The notes under the pieces: model-generated | What the model was told of the DNA's origin: nothing | The model's database searches: none | Seen by the model: the letters and a program-made list of their open reading frames with translations, nothing else | Virus record (IMG/VR): IMGVR_UViG_3300011113_000150 | Location: 1 to 24,822 of that record | DNA: 24,822 nt | Reading direction: 5' to 3' (one strand) | Origin: a virus | Position numbers and translations under genes: made by a program | In this document: one piece after another, positions 2,541 to 22,852 of the stretch | How the letters are laid out: the number at the start of each line of letters is the position of its first letter | Numbering within the stretch: position 1 is the first letter of the stretch

Positions 2541-5500
2541 TTATTTAGACCAAAGAGCAGCTTCTGCTTTTCTTCGTCTTACTAAACCTTTTAATTTTTG
2601 ACCGCCTGATGTATTATATAAAAGCAAAGTTGCTGGAACTTTATCAAAAGTATCTACTGAAGATAGAACTTTACTAAGTGTTTTATATTTTTCACGACCA
2701 TAAAAATTTTGACCAGCATTATATGAGAATGAAATTAAAGCTGCTTGTTGATTTGGAGTCATTTCATTCCAAGTTGGAATTGTTTCTTGTAATCTTGGAA
2801 TAACGACATCATTTACAAAAGTTTCAGCATATTCTCTAGCCTGTTCTTTTGTAATCTTATCACCCTTTTTAACTGGTTTGCCGTTAGGATAAGTTGTTGT
2901 TCCTTGTCCTATTGTCCATACTTTTCCAGTACTATCCCAATATGCTTCTGTTTTTAAACCTTCAAACTCTTCAATTAGTTTCATATATGGTTTATCACTA
3001 ACAGCACCGGGAGATGTTTGTTGTTTTTGTGATTCTGTTAGTGGTATTTTAATTGTACCATCAGATTCAATAGGATAACTACCTAAATCTCTTTTTTTAC
3101 TAGAGTCATAAATTAATTCTTCTGAGATAGTTCCACCCAAGTCTTGATATTGTTGTTTACTAATATTTGGTGGTAGTTCTCCAAATCTTTCAACATAATT
3201 ATTAACTTCATCTAGTGTTTTTGGAATACCAAACATACCTTTGGTATTAAAATTAACGCCAGTATCAATTGGTTTTCTAAGAATATCTGCTTCGGTTATT
3301 TGTTTCCAAATAGACTTATATTCTGTATCCATTAACAAATCAATTGGTACTATTGTTTGTGTTGTTGCTTTTAACATTTGACCTACTGTATTAACAAACT
3401 CATCGGTTGCTTCTGGTAAGTCTTTTTTAAATGTTTCTTCTAATACATCTTTAATATCTTTTAATGCTTCTGGTATATCTGTACTAACAGCTCTTTTAAC
3501 AGCGTCAGTAATTTGTGGGTATAGATTTGCTATTTCTTCAGCACCTAAAAGACCGTCCATATACCATTGGTCTAATTGAGACATTATAAAAGACTCTGCT
3601 TCTTCTTGTTTTAAAGAGCTTCCAGTATATGAAAAGTATGGTCTTTCTTTTTCTGTCTGTAGTGCATTTTCCCAGAATACAGATTCTTGTATTTTTGGAT
3701 AATTATCTTTAGTTTCTTCTTTAAAGGTTGTATTTAAGTTATAACCAACAGCAGCGATATGCATGTTATTAATAATATCAAGTTTTGTAATTTGACCGTC
3801 ATTATCGGAATCTGCTGTTACAATATAATTAAACAAATCTTCATTAGCTACAACTTCTCGTAAAGCTGAAAAGTAAACTTGTTTTGGTTTATCATAAACT
3901 TTTGATAATAAATCAGAAACTCTACTTATTACTTCTGGGTCTTTACCAGAAACTCTAGCTTGATGTTCTGTTATTGGAATAATATAATCAGCTAATTCTT
4001 CTTGAGAGATAACATCTATAACTGGTTGATAAAGATCTCTTTTATTATTATTTGTTGCACCTAGCATTTGAGCAGCTGATACTAAACCGTTATTTGATTT
4101 ATTTGTAGTTGGGTTTGTTCCCAAATCAAGTTCTAATACAGATGGTCTTTGTCCTACTAATAATCTCTCGGCATTTCTATAACCTTCTTCAAAGTTTTCT
4201 GGTAATAAACTTCGGTTTGGTAACATAGTATAAGGAATGCTATTAGAACTATCACTAAATCTAATATTACCTCTATTAGATTGAGTCATAACCATTCTAT
4301 TATCTAATAGGTTTATTGTCTCACCTATTTCATTTTTATAGTTAATTCCATTTAGATTAAAAGGAATTCCGCCATCTTTACTGTTTATAAGTTGATCATC
4401 AGCAGAACTATATGTAAACTTCCAATCCCAAAGTTCAGCTGGTCCTATTCTATCATAAACTCTTCCTGCAATTTCTAATGCTTGTTTTTCAGTTGATGGG
4501 GCAACGCCATTATTAAAAGATTTAATAACAGACGGATTAGTTGAAACTAAAACTCTTAAAGCATCGCTTAATCTTGGGGTTGATCCGGTATTTTGTCCAT
4601 CTTGATTGTTTGAAACAGAAACAATAGATTGAAGTATTTTTTTCTTTGTTTCAACTGAAATTTTATCCTCAATAGGAACAAACTGTCTATCTACTGATTC
4701 AATTAAACTATCATAATCTCTTTCATCTATATTATCATTTAATGACATTGTAACAAACGCCATAGATGTTGGAGACATGTTATTAAATCTTTCAAGAACT
4801 GTTGGGTCTATTAATACACCTTGTTTAGACTGAACTATAGCATTATTAATAATACTACCATAATAACCAGTTGGTTTGGTTTCTCCATTAAGAGGTTTTT
4901 GACCCAAAGAACCAAATAAAGAATTTCTAACAACAATAGGAACACCCGCATCGTCCATCAATACAACTGAATTTAGTGTTTGTGTTATTTGTTTAGTTGC
5001 TTCTTCTTGAGAAATGTTTGGATTATTTATTCTAAGTGTTTGTAGTTCTAATAAAGCAGTAAATAGAGGTGGTTGAATACTTGGATTATTATTTACATAA
5101 GCATTAAACCAAGAATCAGTATTTATATTTTCGTATAATGTTGGGTTTATAATCTCACCATTTTCGTTTACAGCACCAAGTAAACTATGTAGTATAGATT
5201 TTGATGACACTTTTGCATCTAAAATGGGACCAGATGTTGGTCTATCCATTTCTAATACAGGTAAATCTTTTGTTAGATTTGATATTAAAGCTTGTAATTG
5301 ATTTGCCTGTGGTGTTTTTATGTTATTTATTTTTTGAATAAATGTTTCTGGTGTTACATCTTCTCTACCGGGATAACCAGCGTAAGATAGAGCAACCATT
5401 AATTTGGCTTTTTCTAGTGGTTTAAAGTTTTCACCTATTTCAAATAAATGCTTAATTTTTTCTTGTGGCATATATTTTAGGTTTGACTTTAACCACACAG

Positions 5501-6533
5501 CATCTGCTACAGAAATATTATCACTTTGCAGTATTGTTCTTGTTCTTTCAGCAAACTTATGTGGTAAGTTTATACCTCTTGCTGAATGTGCTACTTGAGC
5601 ATCCATTTCAGTTAATAAACTATAACCAGTTATTCCAAGCGTTTTTATTAGATCTTCATCGGTTGCTTCTGGGTTTATAATAACTCCACCGTTTGGTGTT
5701 GGAATTAATGTAGAACCTCCAGTTGCTGTTTTTACTTCCATATTTATACTTTGTGGCCCAATAGCTTCAATTACAGCATTTACTGGCTCTAATCCATTTC
5801 TTCTTGGATATTGATCTTTAGCAATTACTTCGTTATCGGTATTAGATGTATATTTTCCATTTGCCCAATTTGTAAAAGTATTTGCTTTTTTAAACCGTTC
5901 ATTAAAAGATTTTAGAAGATCTGATTGAACTTTTTCAGCATCTCTAGAAATATCATAAAGACCTGATCTGGCTGTTTCTACTACATTAAACCACGCAGAA
6001 CCAAAACCATCAAAGTTAAATCCTTTCTTAACTAGATTACCTTGAGCATCATATTCATCATCAGCAAAAACATCTAATACATTACCATCAGAGTCTTTAA
6101 AACCAATAATTTCATTTGCTTGCTTTCTAAAGGTTTCTTGAAAATAATTTGATGTTGAAAATGGTCTATTAAAATCAACAGCTTCTTCTCTTGGTTCAAC
6201 ATAGTTAGTTGGGTTTGGATCAACTGATGCAGCAAACTCATTTCTCATTTTAGTTTGATAATCATATTGAAGATCTCTTAATTGAGCTGTTTTTTTATTA
6301 ATTGAGTATTTTAATGTATCTTCATATATACTACCAGCAGCAGCAAAAGCTTGCTCACCAAGTTTATACCAATCAACACCATAATCAATATTACCAATCC
6401 ACTCTCTTGGGCTTGGCATTGATACTTCACCTTCTTTTACAACTTGAGTTCCTGCAATTTGTTCTTGTACCTGTGGTGCTTGAATTAAAGAAGGATCTTG
6501 TTGAATCATTAGTTGATTAGGTGTTGGGGCCAT
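2541..6533 (-). CDS. Large internal virion protein with C-terminal T4-type lysozyme (GH24) domain
   Basis: This is a 1330-aa protein. Residues about 1180-1330 form a T4-lysozyme-like (GH24) muramidase domain. The catalytic set is E1191 (in EEFEGL), D1200 (in YWDSTG) and T1207 (in VWTIGQG), spaced much as E11/D20/T26 in T4 lysozyme. The domain ends with the family's typical NQQAALISFSYNAG and RRRKAE stretches. Residues 908-919 read DSDNDGQITKLD, which fits an EF-hand calcium loop. The rest has no recognised domain. By position it is an internal core protein (gp15/gp16 class), and the lysozyme would open peptidoglycan locally during DNA entry. The start at 6533 follows an AGGAG site nine bases upstream and overlaps the previous gene by 17 bases. 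The fused domain could also be a displaced endolysin, but fusion to a virion-size protein favours a virion lysin. Confidence 0.85.
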   Translation of the reverse strand: MAPTPNQLMIQQDPSLIQAPQVQEQIAGTQVVKEGEVSMPSPREWIGNIDYGVDWYKLGEQAFAAAGSIYEDTLKYSINKKTAQLRDLQYDYQTKMRNEFAASVDPNPTNYVEPREEAVDFNRPFSTSNYFQETFRKQANEIIGFKDSDGNVLDVFADDEYDAQGNLVKKGFNFDGFGSAWFNVVETARSGLYDISRDAEKVQSDLLKSFNERFKKANTFTNWANGKYTSNTDNEVIAKDQYPRRNGLEPVNAVIEAIGPQSINMEVKTATGGSTLIPTPNGGVIINPEATDEDLIKTLGITGYSLLTEMDAQVAHSARGINLPHKFAERTRTILQSDNISVADAVWLKSNLKYMPQEKIKHLFEIGENFKPLEKAKLMVALSYAGYPGREDVTPETFIQKINNIKTPQANQLQALISNLTKDLPVLEMDRPTSGPILDAKVSSKSILHSLLGAVNENGEIINPTLYENINTDSWFNAYVNNNPSIQPPLFTALLELQTLRINNPNISQEEATKQITQTLNSVVLMDDAGVPIVVRNSLFGSLGQKPLNGETKPTGYYGSIINNAIVQSKQGVLIDPTVLERFNNMSPTSMAFVTMSLNDNIDERDYDSLIESVDRQFVPIEDKISVETKKKILQSIVSVSNNQDGQNTGSTPRLSDALRVLVSTNPSVIKSFNNGVAPSTEKQALEIAGRVYDRIGPAELWDWKFTYSSADDQLINSKDGGIPFNLNGINYKNEIGETINLLDNRMVMTQSNRGNIRFSDSSNSIPYTMLPNRSLLPENFEEGYRNAERLLVGQRPSVLELDLGTNPTTNKSNNGLVSAAQMLGATNNNKRDLYQPVIDVISQEELADYIIPITEHQARVSGKDPEVISRVSDLLSKVYDKPKQVYFSALREVVANEDLFNYIVTADSDNDGQITKLDIINNMHIAAVGYNLNTTFKEETKDNYPKIQESVFWENALQTEKERPYFSYTGSSLKQEEAESFIMSQLDQWYMDGLLGAEEIANLYPQITDAVKRAVSTDIPEALKDIKDVLEETFKKDLPEATDEFVNTVGQMLKATTQTIVPIDLLMDTEYKSIWKQITEADILRKPIDTGVNFNTKGMFGIPKTLDEVNNYVERFGELPPNISKQQYQDLGGTISEELIYDSSKKRDLGSYPIESDGTIKIPLTESQKQQTSPGAVSDKPYMKLIEEFEGLKTEAYWDSTGKVWTIGQGTTTYPNGKPVKKGDKITKEQAREYAETFVNDVVIPRLQETIPTWNEMTPNQQAALISFSYNAGQNFYGREKYKTLSKVLSSVDTFDKVPATLLLYNTSGGQKLKGLVRRRKAEAALWSK

Positions 6534-7569
6534 TAGTTGGTTCTCCTAGTAAATCTTTATACTGTGAAAGTGCCATATAAATTGTTTTAACAATATCTTC
6601 ATCGTTTTTTACTCTTCCAGACTCTACTTCACCAAGCATACCCTTTTTTATTAAAGAGATATATTCTGGTTTTGAAAACATTGAAAAAGCTTCTGACCAT
6701 CTATCTGGTGTTAGTGATCCGGTTTCTAGCATAGATGCAGCAACACCTTCTGATGCTTTATTATCTAAGTTAATTTTTGATCTTTGATTTTGTACATTAC
6801 CTTTTACATATTGTCTGATAAACTCTGGAGCTAAATCATCAATCATTAACTGTTCATCTGTTGAGGGAGTACCGTATATATCTGTAGGTAATACTTGAGA
6901 TCTGTCTTGTAGATCAGATGCTGGAACAAAAATACCGTCTTTATTAGCTACACCAAAACGACCATTGATTGTATCTGATACATCTAATAAATTCATCTTT
7001 TCTAGTTTTAAAAGATCATTTATATGAGCTTCTTCAGAAACATCTGGATCTAATTCTCTATTTGATAAATTAGCTAATCTTTTTGATAAATTATCTTTAT
7101 AAATTTGTTTTGATTTGTTTAAATTAGAATCTGCTGTTCTTGCAGAAAAATTTTGTAAATCATCTTTAAATTCATTTATTAACCAAGAAGGCCATCTTGA
7201 AACTCTATCTCTAAGAAAATGTTCTTTTTCTTGTGGTGTTTCAAACATTTCCATTTCCATAGAAGATTTGTTTATTAGTTCTTCTTTTGCTTCTTTTTTA
7301 TCTTTTGGGTGTAAAGAAATATATTTATCCCAATAATATTCTTTAAAATCTTCGTTTGGTAATGGAAAATCTTTTGTTGCTTGTACCCAATTTTCAAATA
7401 CTTTTTTAGTATTGTTTGGATACATATCCTTTAGTTCTTGTTCTATTTTTTTAAGTTTATCTTTTAATTTTTCTGCTCTTATTTTTGCTACATCTGTAAC
7501 ATTTGTTTTACTTGCAAAAACAGAACCCTCAGCTATTTGCTGTAGTTTATTTAGTTTTTCATAGTTCAT
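6517..7569 (-). CDS. Probable internal virion protein (350 aa)
   Basis: The product is 350 aa, highly charged and predicted helical. Its lysine/glutamate-rich N-terminal third (around residues 25-60, including KLKDKLKKIEQELKDMY) looks like a coiled coil. I see no signal peptide, membrane segment or catalytic motif. It sits between the gp14-like gene and the 1330-aa lysozyme-bearing core protein and overlaps the latter by 17 bases, so the two are probably translated together. This is the slot of a T7 gp15-like core protein, but it is about half the 747 residues of T7 gp15, so the assignment rests on position. The ATG at 7569 is preceded by TAAGGA, whose TAA is the stop codon of the upstream gene. 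Confidence 0.65.
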   Translation of the reverse strand: MNYEKLNKLQQIAEGSVFASKTNVTDVAKIRAEKLKDKLKKIEQELKDMYPNNTKKVFENWVQATKDFPLPNEDFKEYYWDKYISLHPKDKKEAKEELINKSSMEMEMFETPQEKEHFLRDRVSRWPSWLINEFKDDLQNFSARTADSNLNKSKQIYKDNLSKRLANLSNRELDPDVSEEAHINDLLKLEKMNLLDVSDTINGRFGVANKDGIFVPASDLQDRSQVLPTDIYGTPSTDEQLMIDDLAPEFIRQYVKGNVQNQRSKINLDNKASEGVAASMLETGSLTPDRWSEAFSMFSKPEYISLIKKGMLGEVESGRVKNDEDIVKTIYMALSQYKDLLGEPTNGPNT

Positions 7570-11215: not shown

Positions 11216-11878
11216 TTATCCTCTTTGTATTGGATTTCTTGTAATCAATGGTGCTTTATTTAAGTATATTGTTGGAAATCCAGTTACACCTTCTACAAGT
11301 GTAAATTTAGAACCACTTAGTGATGGAGGCATTGGGCCAAATGTATGAGATAACCTTAGACCAACACCTTGATAGTTTGCAATAGCAGAAGAAGATGGAA
11401 ATAAACATATACTATTTGTTGTTAAATGTTGTATTGGTCCAGCGTTTGTACTAAATACAACACCAGCCCAATACCAACCGGGTTCTTTAATGGTAATATT
11501 ACAAGCTGGCCCAAAATCATTATATCCAGTAACAGTCGCAACACTTTGAGATGAATATAAGCATGTTTCTGGCAATCCCGTTGTTGGGTCTGGCTTAAAC
11601 AAACCAAAATGAGCATTTCCAGCTGTGGTTGGAACAACAACACCACAAAACATATTTTTAATTAAACAAGGTCTAGATATCCAATGTGCTGCTAAATATA
11701 GTAAATTTGCTGTAACATTAGCATTACTACCAGCGGCAGTAAAACCTATTGGTGAATGTTTAACAATCTGTGAATTTCCACCAGAAGAGCAATTTATAAT
11801 ATCAACTAAAATAGGATATGTAAAATTAACTGGTATTGTTGTAAGATTATTAGGAAAACCATAAATACCTTCATTCAT
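11216..11878 (-). CDS. Putative virion appendage protein (220 aa)
   Basis: This is a 220-aa, beta-rich protein with many Gly, Thr, Ser, Asn and aromatic residues. It has no signal peptide or membrane span. It contains GWYWAGVVFST (around 143-153) and several short strand-turn patterns typical of fibre tips or appendage domains. It starts at an ATG that overlaps the stop of the preceding 137-aa gene by four bases (ATGA), showing translational coupling. Its own stop precedes the 109-aa gene by one base. It belongs to the group of small structural-looking genes downstream of the tail fibre, so an accessory receptor-binding or decoration role is plausible. I recognise no named family. Confidence 0.6.
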   Translation of the reverse strand: MNEGIYGFPNNLTTIPVNFTYPILVDIINCSSGGNSQIVKHSPIGFTAAGSNANVTANLLYLAAHWISRPCLIKNMFCGVVVPTTAGNAHFGLFKPDPTTGLPETCLYSSQSVATVTGYNDFGPACNITIKEPGWYWAGVVFSTNAGPIQHLTTNSICLFPSSSAIANYQGVGLRLSHTFGPMPPSLSGSKFTLVEGVTGFPTIYLNKAPLITRNPIQRG

Positions 11879-14422: not shown

Positions 14423-17347
14423 TTATGATGCTGCTATATATGAAAAGTTAAATATAATGTATTGGCTATTTGGTAAATAACCGTTTGTAACGGTTGATTT
14501 TAAAAAATGAGCTTTTAAACTTGGTGAGGTATAAAAGAAAGAAGCACCGTTTGGTCTATCAACATCACTAAAAGTTCCACTACCATTTCCGGATGGTATT
14601 GTACCTAAACCATTAAATTCAAAAGTCATATAGTGTGTTGTTGAGTTAGTAGCATCGCCGCCACCATGATTAAACGGTTTAAGTCTTAAAAATCCATCAC
14701 TTGTTACATAACCAGTAATTAGTCTTGATGCTCTAGAATTTGGGTATTTTACTCCAGCATTAGAAACACAAAAATAACCCTGCGATAAAAAATGAAATCG
14801 TGGTAGTGCTGCTCCCGGTAAACCAATTATTGGAGCATTAGATGAATTAGTAGATCCAAAAGAATCAATTGCATTATCATCACCCTCTACTGTTGTTCTA
14901 TCTGTTCCCATTATACCATAAACATAAACAATATTTCCAATTTTTGTATATGTTAGTGGAAAATTTGCTGTTGATTCACCCGGAACAATATAATTTTTAA
15001 GCCAACTTTTATTATATCTAAAAGTAGATCCACTAGTAGAAGTTCCACATACAACGGGAGCTGAAGGAACTAGAATTGGATTAGAACCTATTTTTGGTGC
15101 TTGTGCGAATACTACAGTACCAGTAGGATCTATTGTCATATCTGGAGTAGTACCTCCGGCGGCATTATATGCTTGTCTGAATTCAATAGTTCCAGTACTT
15201 TGAATAATACCAGTTTCAACAACAGGAGAAATTAATTTAGGTGTTACTTGTACATTACTAGAAATAATTTTAATATTACCATCAACTTCTAGTTTTTCTG
15301 TTGGTGCTGCTACGCCAATACCAACTCTATTTGTAGATGTTGAATCCTGTAATTGAAGGTTTCCAGCTAAACCATCAATTAAACCAACGCTTATTTTTTT
15401 AGTATTTGCTATTTGAACATTGTTTGCAAATAAAATACCATTCGTAGCATTTAAAGTTAATTGATTATTTACTCCTGATGTTGTATGTACTATAGAACCA
15501 GCTCCACTACCGTTTAATCCAATAGATAGAGTACCAGTACCATCTCCTTGTGTTATTGTGTTAGCTGTGGCTGCTGTAACTACATGAATAGATGTACTTG
15601 GGTTGTTTGTTCCAATACCCAAACGACCTGTTGATGTAAATCTAGCAATTTCTGTAGCATTAGAAATAAATTCAAAATTTCTTTTTGCATATAACTCTAA
15701 ATCACTATCGGTAATAGCGTTAGAAATATCGCCTAGTTTATAAACATTTGATGAGTCTAGTGTAAAACTATTTCTAGCTGTTCCACCACTATCCTTAAAC
15801 ATAATATTTACATTGTTATTTAGTGTTGTATTTGCTTCAAGATTTACAGTACTTGTGAATCTACCAGTACCAGTAACATCCAAGTTAAAGGATGGAGATG
15901 TTGTGTTTGTTATACCTACTTTACCATCACTATCTATTGTAATACCAGAGTTTGTAATTCCAGAGTAAGTATTTGTTGTTGCTGTAGCAGTACCTAATTG
16001 TAATTTAGAACCACTAGAACCAAATAAAGCAGCAATTCTAGCTTTTGGTCCAGTTCCTGTTGTTCCTCCAGTAAAATCAATACCAGAATAGTCTGTTGTT
16101 CCAGTAGAACCTCTAATAGTAGTTCCTAGTACGGAAGAAGTATTAAAAGAAGTTACCCCAGATGGTCCATTAATATCAATAATTGTTAGTGGATTTGCGT
16201 TAATACCAAAACCAGTATTTCCGCTAAATGTTTTTGATCCAGTAATGTTTTGTGCTGTTGTTAAATCAACTCCGCTTGGTTGATTAAAAGCACCCAAACC
16301 AGTCCATCCACTTGATGTATAAATAAGTAAATTGTTTCCGTTAGTACTAAAATGTAATGAACCTATAACTGGATTTGGTGGTTGTGTTGTAGAAGCAACT
16401 GGTAGATTAATATTACCATATTGATCAATAGTATTTACTTCAACACCGCTTGAGTTTTTAATAGATAAAATATTATTTGTAGAACTACCTCTGATAGATG
16501 TTTGTCCTATTAGGTTTATAACACCACCGTTTACTGTTAGATTTCCGGTTAGTGTTAGTAAATCGGGAGATCCTTTTGTTAGAGTAAAATTATTAGAATA
16601 ATCTTTTGCTCCATTAGTACCAGCAATTACAACAGCTCCTAGTGGAAACCCACTAAAAATAGAACCAGTTCCACTTAGTGCTGAAGTTACTGTTGTATCA
16701 ATAGCGTTTAGTTTTGTTACAATATCTGAATTGTTTGGTGCTTGAATAGAACCAGAACCAACTTTAGTACTTACTAAATCTACATATGCTTTTACAGTTG
16801 CTGTTGTAATAGGACCAATTAAACCCTCAACAAATGTTTTTGATGCTGTATTATATGTTGTATTGTAATCAATATCTGTAGAAGTTACATATTCATATTT
16901 TAGTCTATCTAGAATTTCTTGTGTAAGATTTAGTAATTGTGTTGTTTGTAGGTTTAGTTGGGTGGCTGTTAATCTAGTTCCATCAACCCAATTAACTAAA
17001 GATTCATTAGATATACTTTTTCTTCTAATAATTAATTTATCGTTAGGTGCTATTGCTGGTATTTGTATTACAGTATTTGTACTTGTTTGGGTATATGTAG
17101 TTGGTGCTGTAATACCAGTAATTGTTTTTGTTGTTTCGTTTACGGTAAAATTAGAAGAAGGAATAACATAAATTGTTCTTAAGTCTTCCTGTTTTAAAAT
17201 TACAGTACTAGGAGTAATAAATGGTCTTTCAATTTCAAGTTGATCTTTATGACTTATACCAGAAACTAAAGGTATTGTTGAATAAGATACTCCATTTGTA
17301 TTCCATGTAGTTGAAATATTTGTTTTAATTTGTGTGTTTGTTGGCAT
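14423..17347 (-). CDS. Tail fibre protein with T7 gp17-type N-terminal domain
   Basis: This is a 974-aa protein. Residues 1 to about 150 match the phage T7 tail-fibre attachment domain: an ISHKDQLEIERPFI-like region, then NDKLIIRRKS, then DGTRLTATQLNLQTTQ, then a helix. The same arrangement attaches T7 gp17 to the tail. The shaft and body (about 200-760) are Gly/Thr/Ser/Asn-rich beta sequence with four V/L-G-I-G...P...L-x-V modules at near-regular spacing (glycines 381, 478, 577 and 676). The C-terminal ~210 residues (from about 761) differ in character and probably form the receptor-binding tip; I see no autocleaving chaperone signature. The ATG at 17347 has GGAG seven bases upstream. It is longer than T7 gp17 (553 aa). 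The tip presumably sets host range. Confidence 0.88.
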   Translation of the reverse strand: MPTNTQIKTNISTTWNTNGVSYSTIPLVSGISHKDQLEIERPFITPSTVILKQEDLRTIYVIPSSNFTVNETTKTITGITAPTTYTQTSTNTVIQIPAIAPNDKLIIRRKSISNESLVNWVDGTRLTATQLNLQTTQLLNLTQEILDRLKYEYVTSTDIDYNTTYNTASKTFVEGLIGPITTATVKAYVDLVSTKVGSGSIQAPNNSDIVTKLNAIDTTVTSALSGTGSIFSGFPLGAVVIAGTNGAKDYSNNFTLTKGSPDLLTLTGNLTVNGGVINLIGQTSIRGSSTNNILSIKNSSGVEVNTIDQYGNINLPVASTTQPPNPVIGSLHFSTNGNNLLIYTSSGWTGLGAFNQPSGVDLTTAQNITGSKTFSGNTGFGINANPLTIIDINGPSGVTSFNTSSVLGTTIRGSTGTTDYSGIDFTGGTTGTGPKARIAALFGSSGSKLQLGTATATTNTYSGITNSGITIDSDGKVGITNTTSPSFNLDVTGTGRFTSTVNLEANTTLNNNVNIMFKDSGGTARNSFTLDSSNVYKLGDISNAITDSDLELYAKRNFEFISNATEIARFTSTGRLGIGTNNPSTSIHVVTAATANTITQGDGTGTLSIGLNGSGAGSIVHTTSGVNNQLTLNATNGILFANNVQIANTKKISVGLIDGLAGNLQLQDSTSTNRVGIGVAAPTEKLEVDGNIKIISSNVQVTPKLISPVVETGIIQSTGTIEFRQAYNAAGGTTPDMTIDPTGTVVFAQAPKIGSNPILVPSAPVVCGTSTSGSTFRYNKSWLKNYIVPGESTANFPLTYTKIGNIVYVYGIMGTDRTTVEGDDNAIDSFGSTNSSNAPIIGLPGAALPRFHFLSQGYFCVSNAGVKYPNSRASRLITGYVTSDGFLRLKPFNHGGGDATNSTTHYMTFEFNGLGTIPSGNGSGTFSDVDRPNGASFFYTSPSLKAHFLKSTVTNGYLPNSQYIIFNFSYIAAS
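15278..16213 (-). repeat. Four VGIG-type modules in tail fibre, about 98 residues apart
   Basis: Within the fibre, GFGINANPL..DING (residues 379-394), VGITNTTSPSFNLDVTG (477-493), RLGIGTNNPSTSIHV (575-589) and RVGIGVAAPTEKLEVDG (674-690) share one pattern. The glycine of each lies 97, 99 and 99 residues after the previous one. These are degenerate protein repeats, not exact DNA repeats. Confidence 0.7.
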
Positions 17348-20300: not shown

Positions 20301-20762
20301 GTTAGATACAATTGAAGTATTTTGTTCAGTTTGTTCTAGATTAGATGTTGGTGTTATATCAACCCAAGTATTCTCATTTAGCTTATAAACATAAAATAAA
20401 ATTGAATTTGTTTCTTTAGCATTATAATCTATACCAATTAAAAATCTATTATCATCATTAATTGTAAACCAAGTCCAATAAATATCTATGTTTGTTTTGT
20501 CATATAATCTATATAAATCTAGTCTATTAGTATAGTTTGTTTGGTTATTACCAATAAAAGATTCTTGTGGAATGATTTCAAATCCGGGTCTTTTTTCAAA
20601 AGATCTTTCTAATGAAATTAAAGCGTTGTCTAGTGCTTCTGCTTCTAGTGGTAATCTTTTTGTTGGTGGTTGTGTAGATACACCACCAGATAAACTATAG
20701 ACAGGAATTTTAGTACTTGCAGTACCTCCAGATGGGCTTAATCTTCTTCTAATTGGTGGCAT
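17361..20762 (-). CDS. Tail tubular protein B (T7 gp12-like)
   Basis: This 1133-aa protein begins like T7 gp12. A basic N-terminus is followed by YSLSGGVSTQPPTKRLPLEA, then a helix and a FEKRPGFE motif near residue 55-62, equivalent to the GGISQQP...KRP start of gp12. The rest is long, Thr/Asn/Tyr-rich beta sequence, as in the gp12 propeller that forms the tail nozzle and attaches the fibres. It is some 340 residues longer than T7 gp12 (794 aa), with no recognised inserted domain. The gene begins one base inside the stop of the gp11-like gene (TAATG). A GGGGA site lies eight bases upstream, so the two tail-tube proteins are made together. The fibre gene follows after 13 bases. Confidence 0.88.
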   Translation of the reverse strand: MPPIRRRLSPSGGTASTKIPVYSLSGGVSTQPPTKRLPLEAEALDNALISLERSFEKRPGFEIIPQESFIGNNQTNYTNRLDLYRLYDKTNIDIYWTWFTINDDNRFLIGIDYNAKETNSILFYVYKLNENTWVDITPTSNLEQTEQNTSIVSNTTRNYITYNISSFYKAKDVLKVTTVGSSLIVLNTLVKAGFTSGKTGNSINLDGSEKDIKDLKGQKVTYYTSSLVMGSTGNLETLTTSTDLTKQGSDYFYYSSTGTAISALTELTLGINIDDRVVVGGNITMHPSGINNNPPTTYIQDAYLTGNIKEIYNNTIDNLNFADTPTNFKTTTTNVFTVGTTTTPNTASVLNQVIYIEPAAIPTNITGGYFNGTGILIWTSTEEWLYGYITNYTAAAGATPARITLKVTGVSTTWKNGSLAIPSGTKNVAFECLKLNLTSFSSVLSSSATTYNTWLIWYGSYLPVEDFKHKDPDKPWFGQSFADFSEIRFPTEPNEIFANNSWLAGKSTTVIDQTAREMMIALYDSEHPLISQINATGIYNTTGFGLGKILYTAGPYLTQSSGYYRVINFPETQKYTLVKDLGNNTFQNYTISGTGRPYTQKIRSPDICSVIDETRMPQKLSFDASPTGINKDWYFGPIKWKERTNGDRNTNPGPSVFLTNDKSDARHVNINALTTYRDRLYFSSGDVVFSTQLGNYEDLFLQDPSNIVSSDPIDIRASSKSYAEITSLTPFSDFLFINTKADIQFELRGSENQITPLTAQITPTAFYSTAKLTEPLLMGSLIYFFDKSRLYMYTAQQVASLSTAEEVSNHCIGYLPKNYRAPCVAPAHNSIIFVDDDKPNYIYLYTNKFASDRVLQNAFYRYNLTESYDEVLSTQVYDNYLVCVVKKQNNYSPLNTALLPNTTEYYILKSYLGKQNTTIPRLDNLFSFTIYENNNTTYNSETNETVFTLYFPYAFINQEKILIITDQNDITWGEKKYTVLKPKMEYLPGFGIKLAVKGNYLNHQGKVYIGTTYTMNVELSTPFVRDTNNNAIDGVLNLKTLVLRHADTGNYDIIATRREKSVIKSSFSAIQSNKITDTLSIENIEKNGEFVAKILGFSDTTSIKIISDYPTPVNIVNMEFKGKFKQTNTSLGT

Positions 20763-21430
20763 TATCTATTTCCCCTCCAATAACGATATCTAGATGGATC
20801 ATAAACATAAGGATTTCTAAAAGCAGCACCACGAACATTCATATCACCGCTTTCAAAAATATTTCTTTTTTTGTAGTTAATATCAGCAGATCTTCCTTTG
20901 ACATTATATAACTGTTCATTATATTCAAGGTATCTATCGGCTTCTCCATCACCAAGAATAGCAATTTGATATTGTCTCATTGCTGTTGCCATTATAGCTC
21001 TTTGTATAGGTGTATCTAAATGTTCCCATTTTAGCTTTTTAGTTACTTCAATATAATAATCACCAGTTATCCAAGTATCTTTATCTTCAGTATAGTTATA
21101 TAACCGAGGTGGGTTATCATTTAGTACTTTTGCTATAATTCTTTGTCCATCGGTAGTTAGATGTAGAGATACTAGTTCTGCTGAAATAATACCTTCTTCA
21201 TCTGAATCACCAGAATCAAATATAATTTTATTATCTGAATTTGGATTAAATTTTCTAATTATTTTATTATTAGCTAGACCTCTTAATTGAAAGTCTAAAC
21301 TAGCTTGTTCTAGTATTGTTTCAGCAATTCCAGTATCAATACCAGAATTGTTTATTAGGTCAGCTACTGGAGATTCACCAGCAGCCAGTAACATTTGATT
21401 AATTGCTTGTAGCTTGGTTATAAAACCCAT
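20762..21430 (-). CDS. Tail tubular protein A (T7 gp11-like)
   Basis: The 222-aa product is close in length to T7 gp11 (196 aa). It opens with the family's typical helix, FITKLQAINQMLLAAGESPV, followed by DTGIAETILEQASLDFQLRG. A central strand region and a helical end with AIMATAMRQYQIAILGD follow. gp11-like proteins form the ring between portal and nozzle. A strong AAGGAGG lies four bases before the ATG at 21430. It is the first gene after the capsid-gene terminator, so it is reached by read-through or by a transcript starting nearby. The gp12-like gene starts in its last codon. Confidence 0.9.
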   Translation of the reverse strand: MGFITKLQAINQMLLAAGESPVADLINNSGIDTGIAETILEQASLDFQLRGLANNKIIRKFNPNSDNKIIFDSGDSDEEGIISAELVSLHLTTDGQRIIAKVLNDNPPRLYNYTEDKDTWITGDYYIEVTKKLKWEHLDTPIQRAIMATAMRQYQIAILGDGEADRYLEYNEQLYNVKGRSADINYKKRNIFESGDMNVRGAAFRNPYVYDPSRYRYWRGNR

Positions 21431-21445
21431 ATAGCCTCCTTAGAG

Positions 21446-21483
21446 AAAAAAACCACCCGACTCCCACTTAAGGGAGCCGGGGG
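21446..21483 (-). terminator. Rho-independent terminator after the capsid gene
   Basis: On the transcribed strand a 10-bp stem (CCCGGCTCCC paired with GGGAGTCGGG, with one G-U pair) closes a 6-base loop TTAAGT. It is followed, after GGTGG bases that partly extend the stem, by seven T residues (A46-A52 on the plus strand). It lies between the capsid and gp11-like genes, the same place as T7 T-phi. There it would make the capsid message end early and reduce tail-gene expression relative to capsid. Confidence 0.9.
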
Positions 21484-21490
21484 TAGATTA

Positions 21491-21502
21491 GGATCACCTC
21501 CT
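21491..21502 (-). promoter_or_regulatory. Orphan full-length Shine-Dalgarno sequence
   Basis: The transcript reads AGGAGGTGATCC, a 12-base perfect complement to the conserved 3' end of 16S rRNA (GGATCACCTCCT). It lies 48 bases after the capsid stop and just before the terminator stem. No ATG, GTG or TTG follows at a usable distance, and the next gene has its own AAGGAGG beyond the hairpin. Ordinary ribosome sites in this window are 4-7 bases. Function is unknown; a bound-ribosome mRNA stabiliser, as in Bacillus STAB-SD elements, is one possibility. Confidence 0.7.
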
Positions 21503-21550
21503 GTCAATCGACTTGAACAAACAAACCGTTAACAGTAAGATTAATCATTA

Positions 21551-22852
21551 TCAAGCCATTGCGTATTCAGCACCGAAGCCGTTTGCTAGGTTTGAGCTAG
21601 AAGCGGTATTGATGATTGAGAATAGTTCTGGTCTTGAGTCAATATCACCAGATGCAAGATCTGATCCAGCTCCACCGTTATTAATGCCAACAAGAAGCTG
21701 GCAAAGTTCTGGACGAAGAATACCAGTACCCTTCATCATGCTTGCTACGGTGAATTGGGTATTTCTTCGGACATCTTGTACGGTATCAACCTTCATACCC
21801 ATTAAGGATAGACCAGCAACTGCTTCTGGCTGGAAGATAGCACCGAAGATGTCTGGGCAAGTATCAGCATTCCATCTTAGGTTGTACTTACTTGAACCAA
21901 TTTCTGATGAAACATAGTTCTTACCGTTTGGTAGATGATTACTCTTGATAATACGGCAACCCATATATTCAAGAGAATCATTAAGGCCATTTAGACCCAT
22001 ACCAATACCCATACCAGCATTATAATCATCACTACCAGTAAATAGTGGTGTATTTGCATAAGTACCATTAGCCCAAGGCTGATTAGCAGCTGCATGTGTA
22101 GCTCTTGGAATACCAAGACCACGGATTGTCTGGAATACTTTTGGAGTGACTACACAATAAACATTGTTAGTTGGGTAATCATTTTCCTGCATGAATACAA
22201 AGTAATCTTCAATAGCCTTAAGAATATTAAGAGCACTTAATTCAGTACAAGCAGTTACAGCAGCATTATTAGCACCACTAACAACAGTTCCAACTACAGC
22301 TGGAGCGGGGAAGTTTGCTTGTAGTAAACCTCTTGGATCTGCATTAGCTGAAGTTAGAGTACCTGCGGTGTGTGAATAACCAAGTGGGCTTAGTAGACCA
22401 GCTACGCAAATAGCTTCAGCTAATTGCTTATCTCTTGTATTAGCAAGAGTCTGGCCTGCCTGACGAGCTAGTTCGCTACGGTAATCCCATTGGGTTACTA
22501 GAGCGTCTACATTGTCAGTTTCAAAGTGAGCAGCCATTGGTCGCTTATCAAGGTTAACCTTGAAGCTACTGGTGGTTGAGCTGCCACCGCCAAGTTCTTC
22601 GCCTGCATCCCAAGATGCATTTAGAGCGATAGTACCAGTAATTGGGAATTCCCATGAGAATCCACCAGTTAGTGACTTATTAGTAATTAAGTTTTCAAAT
22701 ACATTATACTGATCGTATGCATGAATAGTTTCGCCAGACCAGAGTGGTAGCCATAGTTTGTTTGGGTTTGAACCACTTGGACCGTCAATTAAACCTGAAC
22801 GCTTTGGTGCGAAATCTGCTGCATCAGTAAATGAGGATGAAGGAAATGCCAT
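21551..22852 (-). CDS. Major capsid protein (T7 gp10-like, HK97 fold)
   Basis: The 433-aa product is the right size for a podovirus capsid protein. The N-terminal third has the T7-like pattern KLWLPLWSGETIHAYDQYNV, then SLTGGFSWEFPITGTI, then GEELGG. NLDKRPMAAHFETDNVDALV and a helix with DYRSELARQAGQTLANTRDK follow, corresponding to the E-loop and spine helix of gp10. The later part has the strand, P-domain and A-domain composition of the HK97 fold. Third codon positions are richer in C than in neighbouring genes, consistent with high expression. The ATG at 22852 follows AGGAG nine bases away. The gene has a long leader and a terminator of its own. I see no gp10B-type frameshift extension, because several stops follow at once. 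Confidence 0.93.
   Translation of the reverse strand: MAFPSSSFTDAADFAPKRSGLIDGPSGSNPNKLWLPLWSGETIHAYDQYNVFENLITNKSLTGGFSWEFPITGTIALNASWDAGEELGGGSSTTSSFKVNLDKRPMAAHFETDNVDALVTQWDYRSELARQAGQTLANTRDKQLAEAICVAGLLSPLGYSHTAGTLTSANADPRGLLQANFPAPAVVGTVVSGANNAAVTACTELSALNILKAIEDYFVFMQENDYPTNNVYCVVTPKVFQTIRGLGIPRATHAAANQPWANGTYANTPLFTGSDDYNAGMGIGMGLNGLNDSLEYMGCRIIKSNHLPNGKNYVSSEIGSSKYNLRWNADTCPDIFGAIFQPEAVAGLSLMGMKVDTVQDVRRNTQFTVASMMKGTGILRPELCQLLVGINNGGAGSDLASGDIDSRPELFSIINTASSSNLANGFGAEYAMA

Follow-up and report, generated by a model that had tools for sequence, protein, structure and literature searches.

A Shine–Dalgarno (SD) sequence of unusual length that is followed by no start codon lies between the capsid gene stop and the transcription terminator of a T7-like phage and many of its relatives, and the sequence comparisons support the conclusion that this orphan anti-16S sequence is under selection at that place. 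With belief and doubt about evenly balanced, we interpret it as a site in the capsid 3′ untranslated region (UTR) where ribosome docking is gated by translation: ribosomes arriving from the capsid gene by way of a short open reading frame (mini-ORF) would uncover the SD. The element was studied in a 24.8-kb IMG/VR virus fragment, all 24,822 nt of which were analyzed and are referred to below as the window.

An extended anti-16S sequence in the capsid 3′ UTR

The orphan SD, AGGAGGTGATCC, occupies positions 21,491–21,502 of the minus strand, which is the coding strand at this site, and contains the core GGAGGTGATC (21,501–21,492, minus strand) that is conserved in relatives. As the first-pass annotation had reported, it is an exact 12-base complement of the 16S rRNA 3′ end, and it is the only exact match in the window. 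Complementarity was judged against the universal 16S 3′ end, from which the exact tail of the host may differ; a search of bacterial genomes for the host gave only three chance matches. Under a first-order Markov model of both strands, 0.00086 copies of the 12-mer and 0.0126 copies of the core are expected per window, in line with the earlier estimate of well under one chance occurrence, and a chance origin of AGGAGGTGATCC (expectation ~0.0009) was rejected. The complementarity extends over 12 nt in the window, 10 nt in the invariant core and 14 nt in the L047 clade, while the SD matches of the window's ordinary genes span only 3–7 nt. A phage promoter or other repeated signal was likewise rejected, GGAGGTGATC being single-copy in most of the 60–67-kb relatives, as the whole element is in most near-complete genomes. 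An Rfam scan of the window returned no family above the gathering threshold, with only chance-level weak matches near the orphan SD.

Every structural gene around the orphan SD is encoded on this same strand. The major capsid protein gene (T7 gp10-like; 21,551–22,852; PHROG phrog_267, E 6e-28; Pfam Gp10A-like match just below the cut-off) ends 48 nt upstream of it. Immediately downstream, a strong hairpin and U-run span 21,484–21,446: the predicted stem of the intrinsic terminator, hairpin H2, covers 21,452–21,484 and the U-run 21,446–21,452. RNAalifold on a mixed alignment found compensatory change (U-A/C-G) at one H2 pair, in 6 of 32 sequences. The tail tubular gene follows (gp11-like, tail tubular A; 20,762–21,430; PF17212, phrog_446), with an ordinary SD, AAGGAGG (21,435–21,441), 4 nt 5′ of its ATG. 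Gene order and terminator place are those of T7 genes 10 and 11, where Tphi likewise sets a hairpin and U-run before tail tubular A. Three window proteins in this otherwise recognizable T7-like structural region, of 974, 220 and 350 aa (14,423–17,347, 11,216–11,878 and 6,517–7,569), gave no PHROG or Pfam match.

Conservation among relatives selected by capsid

Relatives were retrieved by capsid protein alone, not by motif, and span 53–82% capsid identity. Among the 75 with readable 3′ ends, 53 carry GGAGGTGATC between the capsid stop and the terminator, 47–62 nt after the stop and with the terminator directly next to it. The position described for the window is therefore repeated in relatives, and the search downstream of related capsid genes proposed in the first-pass annotation, for which absence from all close relatives would have counted against the element, found it in most of the 75. 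A separate scan of IMG/VR for the motif plus a terminator yielded 116 stretches. In 63 distinct sequences, the only departure from the ten-base core is one A-to-G change (L021, GGAGGTGGTC), which retains a G·U pair with 16S rRNA, and the base directly after the core varies freely. Since these 63 sequences were aligned on the core, its invariance is partly a product of how they were selected, and the unbiased figure is 53 of 75.

Several clades, including close relatives, lack the element. On a capsid tree of 74 rows, its distribution needs four changes, three of them forced, compared with about ten in shuffles, which fits an ancestral trait with three to four losses or one exchanged by recombination. 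The 3′-UTR type also departs from the capsid tree in places (L011/L015 versus L010/L012/L014), and this mismatch suggests recombination at the capsid 3′ end. One 67.4-kb record (G009) holds two near-copies of the capsid 3′ end, L766 (286) and L767 (63958), ~63.7 kb apart and slightly different, which probably represent overlapping ends in an assembly of two strains. All known isolates are distant, their capsids reaching at most about 29% identity; none of those searched has a matching capsid 3′ UTR, and an orphan extended SD before the terminator was found in none of T7, HTVC011P, P-SCSP1d and LUZ100.

The absence of a start codon at a usable distance, first remarked on for the window alone, extends to all 63 distinct family sequences, in which ATG, GTG and TTG are missing within 28 nt after GGAGG; the nearest start codon, a GTG in the terminator region, comes 29–31 nt after it. 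What stands at start-codon distance is ATCTA (21,484–21,488, minus strand), which is family-invariant, begins 8–10 nt after GGAGG and is not a start codon. That ATCT serves as a simple partner of AGGU was rejected, because the better-pairing ACCU would then be expected and none was noticed among the listed orphans.

A mini-ORF of arbitrary sequence joins the capsid stop to the SD

The first-pass annotation overlooked both a mini-ORF between the capsid stop and the SD and a hairpin that contains the SD. In the window, the mini-ORF (21,504–21,548, minus strand; ATG to TGA, peptide MINLTVNGLFVQVD) begins 2 nt after the capsid stop (TGATAATG) and ends 2 nt before GGAGG. Its start and stop positions are conserved: across the family, the ATG shares bases with the capsid stop or lies right beside it (TAATG, TGATAATG, TAATTATG), the frame runs for 14–17 codons, and the stop falls 1–3 nt before GGAGG in 67 of 73 cases. 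The encoded peptides belong to mutually unrelated types (MINLTVNIVYLFKHV, MIDSLSTFGFVFINRV, MILSASERGFSLFTNLA, MITLLLHNKFLLLVLV, MINTFSMSVCDFLYAD, MTNHFSVTVLLYADC). When spacers were shuffled, this layout was recreated in 0.5–5% of trials per representative; the product of these frequencies over eight representatives is ~5e-15, a figure in which two pairs are related types and not fully independent. Within types, variable sites are spread over the three codon positions as 18/14/18, with 13 synonymous and 35 nonsynonymous variants. A functional mini-peptide was rejected on this even variation and nonsynonymous excess, which indicates that the position of the mini-ORF matters and its peptide does not.

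A few genomes have an interrupted or shortened frame (L036; L020 and L026 stop 8 nt early), and SD-less clades also lack the ATG-overlap mini-ORF. The overlapping ATG is absent from the L047 clade, whose capsid stop reads TAATAG, and from the distant relatives L253 and L277 (capsid identity of L253, 48.6%). These carry instead a AAAGGAGG-N6/8-TTG mini-ORF of 5–8 codons with a strong ribosome-binding site of its own, and this too stops 0–2 nt before the SD. An extension of the capsid by frameshifting, of the T7 10B type, was rejected: the mini-ORF lies in the −1 frame in 68 of 70 cases, but it is in frame 0 in L109 and L190, capsid 3′ ends differ between clades, and the −1 frame upstream is open for a variable 1–32 codons, unlike in T7 gp10A/10B, where it is open from a conserved slippery site into the extension.

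The spacing of TAATG junctions (−1 nt) is one of those found enriched where genes overlap in pairs, and coupling or reinitiation fades by about 20 nt (PMC12548453, PMC10666635). With the SD 50 nt away from the capsid stop, a bridge such as the mini-ORF would thus be needed for capsid ribosomes to reach it.

The SD is predicted to be hidden in a hairpin

In the predicted hairpin H1 (21,486–21,552, minus strand), the capsid stop and mini-ORF RNA form the 5′ arm, and the SD and AUC form the 3′ arm, with the AUC pairing to the capsid stop/AUG region. The SD of the window has an unpaired probability of 0.06, compared with 0.47 when the upstream RNA is shuffled, and the folding z is −2.7. From the capsid stop to ATCTA, the RNA is predicted to be more stable than its shuffles in 57 of 57 distinct sequences (z −1.7 to −4.7, mean −3.0), and in 17 representatives the mean unpaired probability of the SD is 0.10 versus 0.32 with shuffled spacers (pairing 0.90 versus 0.68). 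The SD is distinctly hidden in the predictions for the MINL, MITL, MTNH and L047 types, moderately so for MIDS and MILS, and weakly for L011 and L049; in folding against shuffles the effect is not significant in the MINT/MINF types (L063, L108) and absent in L253/L277. RNAalifold on the mixed alignment prefers a local GGAGGUG-AUCUACC pairing, made mostly of invariant pairs without covariation, and no covariation appears for H1 in that alignment, where the 5′ arm is too divergent. As a folding prediction, H1 has good support in some of the clades and stays tentative in the remainder. Where the SD is predicted to pair with the mini-ORF RNA, the likely mechanism is no longer a passive site but one that translation would open.

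A further feature of H1 is that the sequence pairing with the SD differs between clades and carries mismatches, while the SD arm stays GGAGGTGATC. An outside partner such as 16S rRNA best explains an arm that is invariant although its intramolecular partner changes, and together with the two different mini-ORF designs that end at the same point, this makes an RNA-shielding site for docking or parking our preferred explanation.

Proposed mechanism and alternative explanations

In the mechanism that we propose, ribosomes finishing the capsid gene would restart at the overlapping or adjacent AUG, as the TAATG-type junctions suggest, and would read 14–17 codons whose peptide is irrelevant, presumably opening the predicted SD-hiding hairpin as they go. 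Termination 1–3 nt before the SD could then allow the released or a fresh 30S subunit to pair with the 10–14-nt SD, and the subunit, finding no usable start codon, would be held instead of initiating; at the usual distance from SD to P-site, its footprint would reach the terminator stem. The likeliest benefit would be that RNA decay is blocked, either at the 3′ end of the mRNA in heaviest use or at the new 5′ end of a read-through tail mRNA. We infer from sequence that 30S subunits would dock here and that docking may affect mRNA stability or termination.

In an alternative explanation, read-through RNA would be cut in or near H1, and a 30S subunit on the SD would guard the new 5′ end of the tail transcript. 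The mRNAs of T7-type phages are commonly cut at hairpins by RNase III, which speaks for this explanation, as do some orphan SDs of unrelated phages that precede head genes (scaffold, protease). It also shares the sequence logic of the STAB-SD element, an extended SD without a start codon (PMC4113751). In the window, however, the terminator separates the SD from the tail gene, the tail gene has a strong SD of its own and the cut site at H1 is only presumed, and we consider such a 5′ shield unlikely, though it has real claims.

Ribosome occupancy might instead set read-through of the terminator, a 30S subunit covering AUCUA and the terminator 5′ arm; we find this distinctly unlikely, as we do the link between capsid translation and tail transcription that it would create. 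Such control is favored by the nearly constant spacing between SD and terminator, with ATC 8–10 nt after GGAGG and the stem adjoining, and by the alternative SD–AUCUACC pairing of the consensus, which would compete with the base of the stem. However, a single-subunit RNA polymerase is encoded in 11 of 11 related records tested, most of them of 60–67 kb. T7 RNA polymerase outruns ribosomes, and with so fast a phage polymerase a ribosome would rarely be in place in time, which makes control of termination less likely.

It is quite improbable, in our judgment, that the SD is simply the 3′ arm of an RNA structure, such as an RNase III site or a 3′-end stabilizer, to which 16S pairing is irrelevant. 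A hairpin adjoining the terminator is indeed predicted in nearly all clades, but the arm remains GGAGGTGATC while its partner changes and carries mismatches, and the single core change, in L021, is one that keeps a G·U pair with 16S rRNA. A decoy role, in which the tails of plentiful capsid mRNA would occupy 30S subunits and so reduce competing translation, appears very improbable: long perfect complementarity beside a gene expected to be strongly expressed would suit it, yet in most clades the SD is predicted to be buried, a single site on each mRNA would hardly titrate ribosomes, and close relatives do without the element. That the SD is left over from the start of a lost gene, or that a gene begins after it at a non-canonical codon, is scarcely credible. 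ATC stands at start-codon distance, but neither spacing nor frame after the SD is conserved (L047 reads ATC TAG), which led us to reject the small ORF that the first-pass annotation had named as a threat to its reading, and an element conserved in relatives with capsid identities as low as about 50% is not decaying.

Relation to known systems

The first-pass annotation had drawn an analogy to STAB-SD elements of Bacillus, reportedly described for cry3A by Agaisse and Lereclus in 1996. The STAB-SD of Bacillus thuringiensis cry3A pairs with the 16S 3′ end, has no initiation codon, lies in the 5′ UTR at or close to the beginning of a stable mRNA and halts the 5′–3′ exonuclease RNase J1 (PMC4113751). 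The analogy holds for the sequence, the phage element being likewise an extended, 16S-complementary SD without an initiation codon, and not for the place: the phage SD lies in the capsid 3′ UTR by a terminator, is hidden in a hairpin and has a mini-ORF upstream. Because it is not in a 5′ UTR, we do not file it as a STAB-SD, although RNA processing might create a 5′ end there. In the espADB mRNA, a mini-ORF ribosome-binding site is said to protect the transcript from RNase E (Lodato et al. 2012). Both systems tie a mini-ORF and ribosome traffic to an intergenic SD in polycistronic RNA; unlike in espADB, where the ribosome-binding site belongs to the mini-ORF, the phage SD follows the mini-ORF stop and has no start codon. 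Translational coupling by RNA unfolding, as between MS2 coat and lysis genes (PMC12548453), offers a possible third parallel, in that upstream translation across the TAATG junction would melt the hairpin predicted to hide the SD in most clades, but no downstream gene starts at the uncovered phage SD.

Start-less SDs in unrelated phages

Outside the family, IMG/VR matches to GGAGGTGATC plus ATCTA included start-less noncoding orphans with a terminator in 10 of 105 cases among the matches listed, compared with 0 of 106 among those listed for the control pentamer ATTCA after GGAGGTGATC. In a set selected on AAGGAGGTGATCCA, ATCT occurs within 0–7 nt in 11 of 21 noncoding orphans versus 1 of 48 real start sites. 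The upstream capsids belong in three cases to other PHROG families (L228, phrog_2522; L568, phrog_1328; L614, phrog_212), and other orphan SDs adjoin portal, scaffold, head-protease, endolysin, PhoH or DNA-binding genes. Two of these three capsid families have the orphan SD only sporadically, in 3 of 23 and in 1 of 63 distinct relatives, without deep conservation, and hiding of the SD is not general in the unrelated orphans (mean unpaired probability 0.38 versus 0.40 shuffled). Recurrence being sporadic and hiding not general, we treat these cases as a lead only, outside the main claim.

Several side observations belong to this set. A start-less SD with ATCT and a hairpin or terminator occurs in unrelated phages including L209, L228, L245, L260, L285, L292, L568, L587, L593 and L614, and a stop codon lies within 4 nt upstream in 65% of the noncoding ATCT orphans. 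A small hairpin, GG(N)GCTAATC(N)CC, directly follows the orphan SD and ATCTA in L547, L593, L549, L284 and L559, contigs that are otherwise different; L559, which carries an orphan SD, also contains a group I intron (2991–3252; Rfam RF00028). Orphans of the form AAGGAGGTGATCCA plus ATCTC were seen in L396, L403, L373, L362 and L389; wherever the following gene could be identified, it was one for a scaffold or head protease, and in some of these orphans GGAGGU can pair with AUCUCC.

Implications

An SD is nearly always taken as a signal to start translation. The one described here has no start codon, is invariant across highly diverged capsid lineages, lies by prediction within a hairpin that hides it, and would be fed by a mini-ORF whose sequence is arbitrary. 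Tentatively, and with rather more doubt than belief, we suggest that it represents a new class of 3′-UTR element, in which a mini-ORF encoding a decoy peptide delivers ribosomes to a start-less SD and uncovers it, so that a 30S subunit is parked there. Under that interpretation, late transcripts of phages would on several occasions have acquired simpler forms, consisting of a stop codon, an extended SD, ATCT and a hairpin. The element is compact (about 110 nt), and its parts can be mutated separately and moved to a reporter. It offers a natural test of whether ribosome docking itself may serve as a regulatory device at mRNA 3′ ends in bacteria and their phages.
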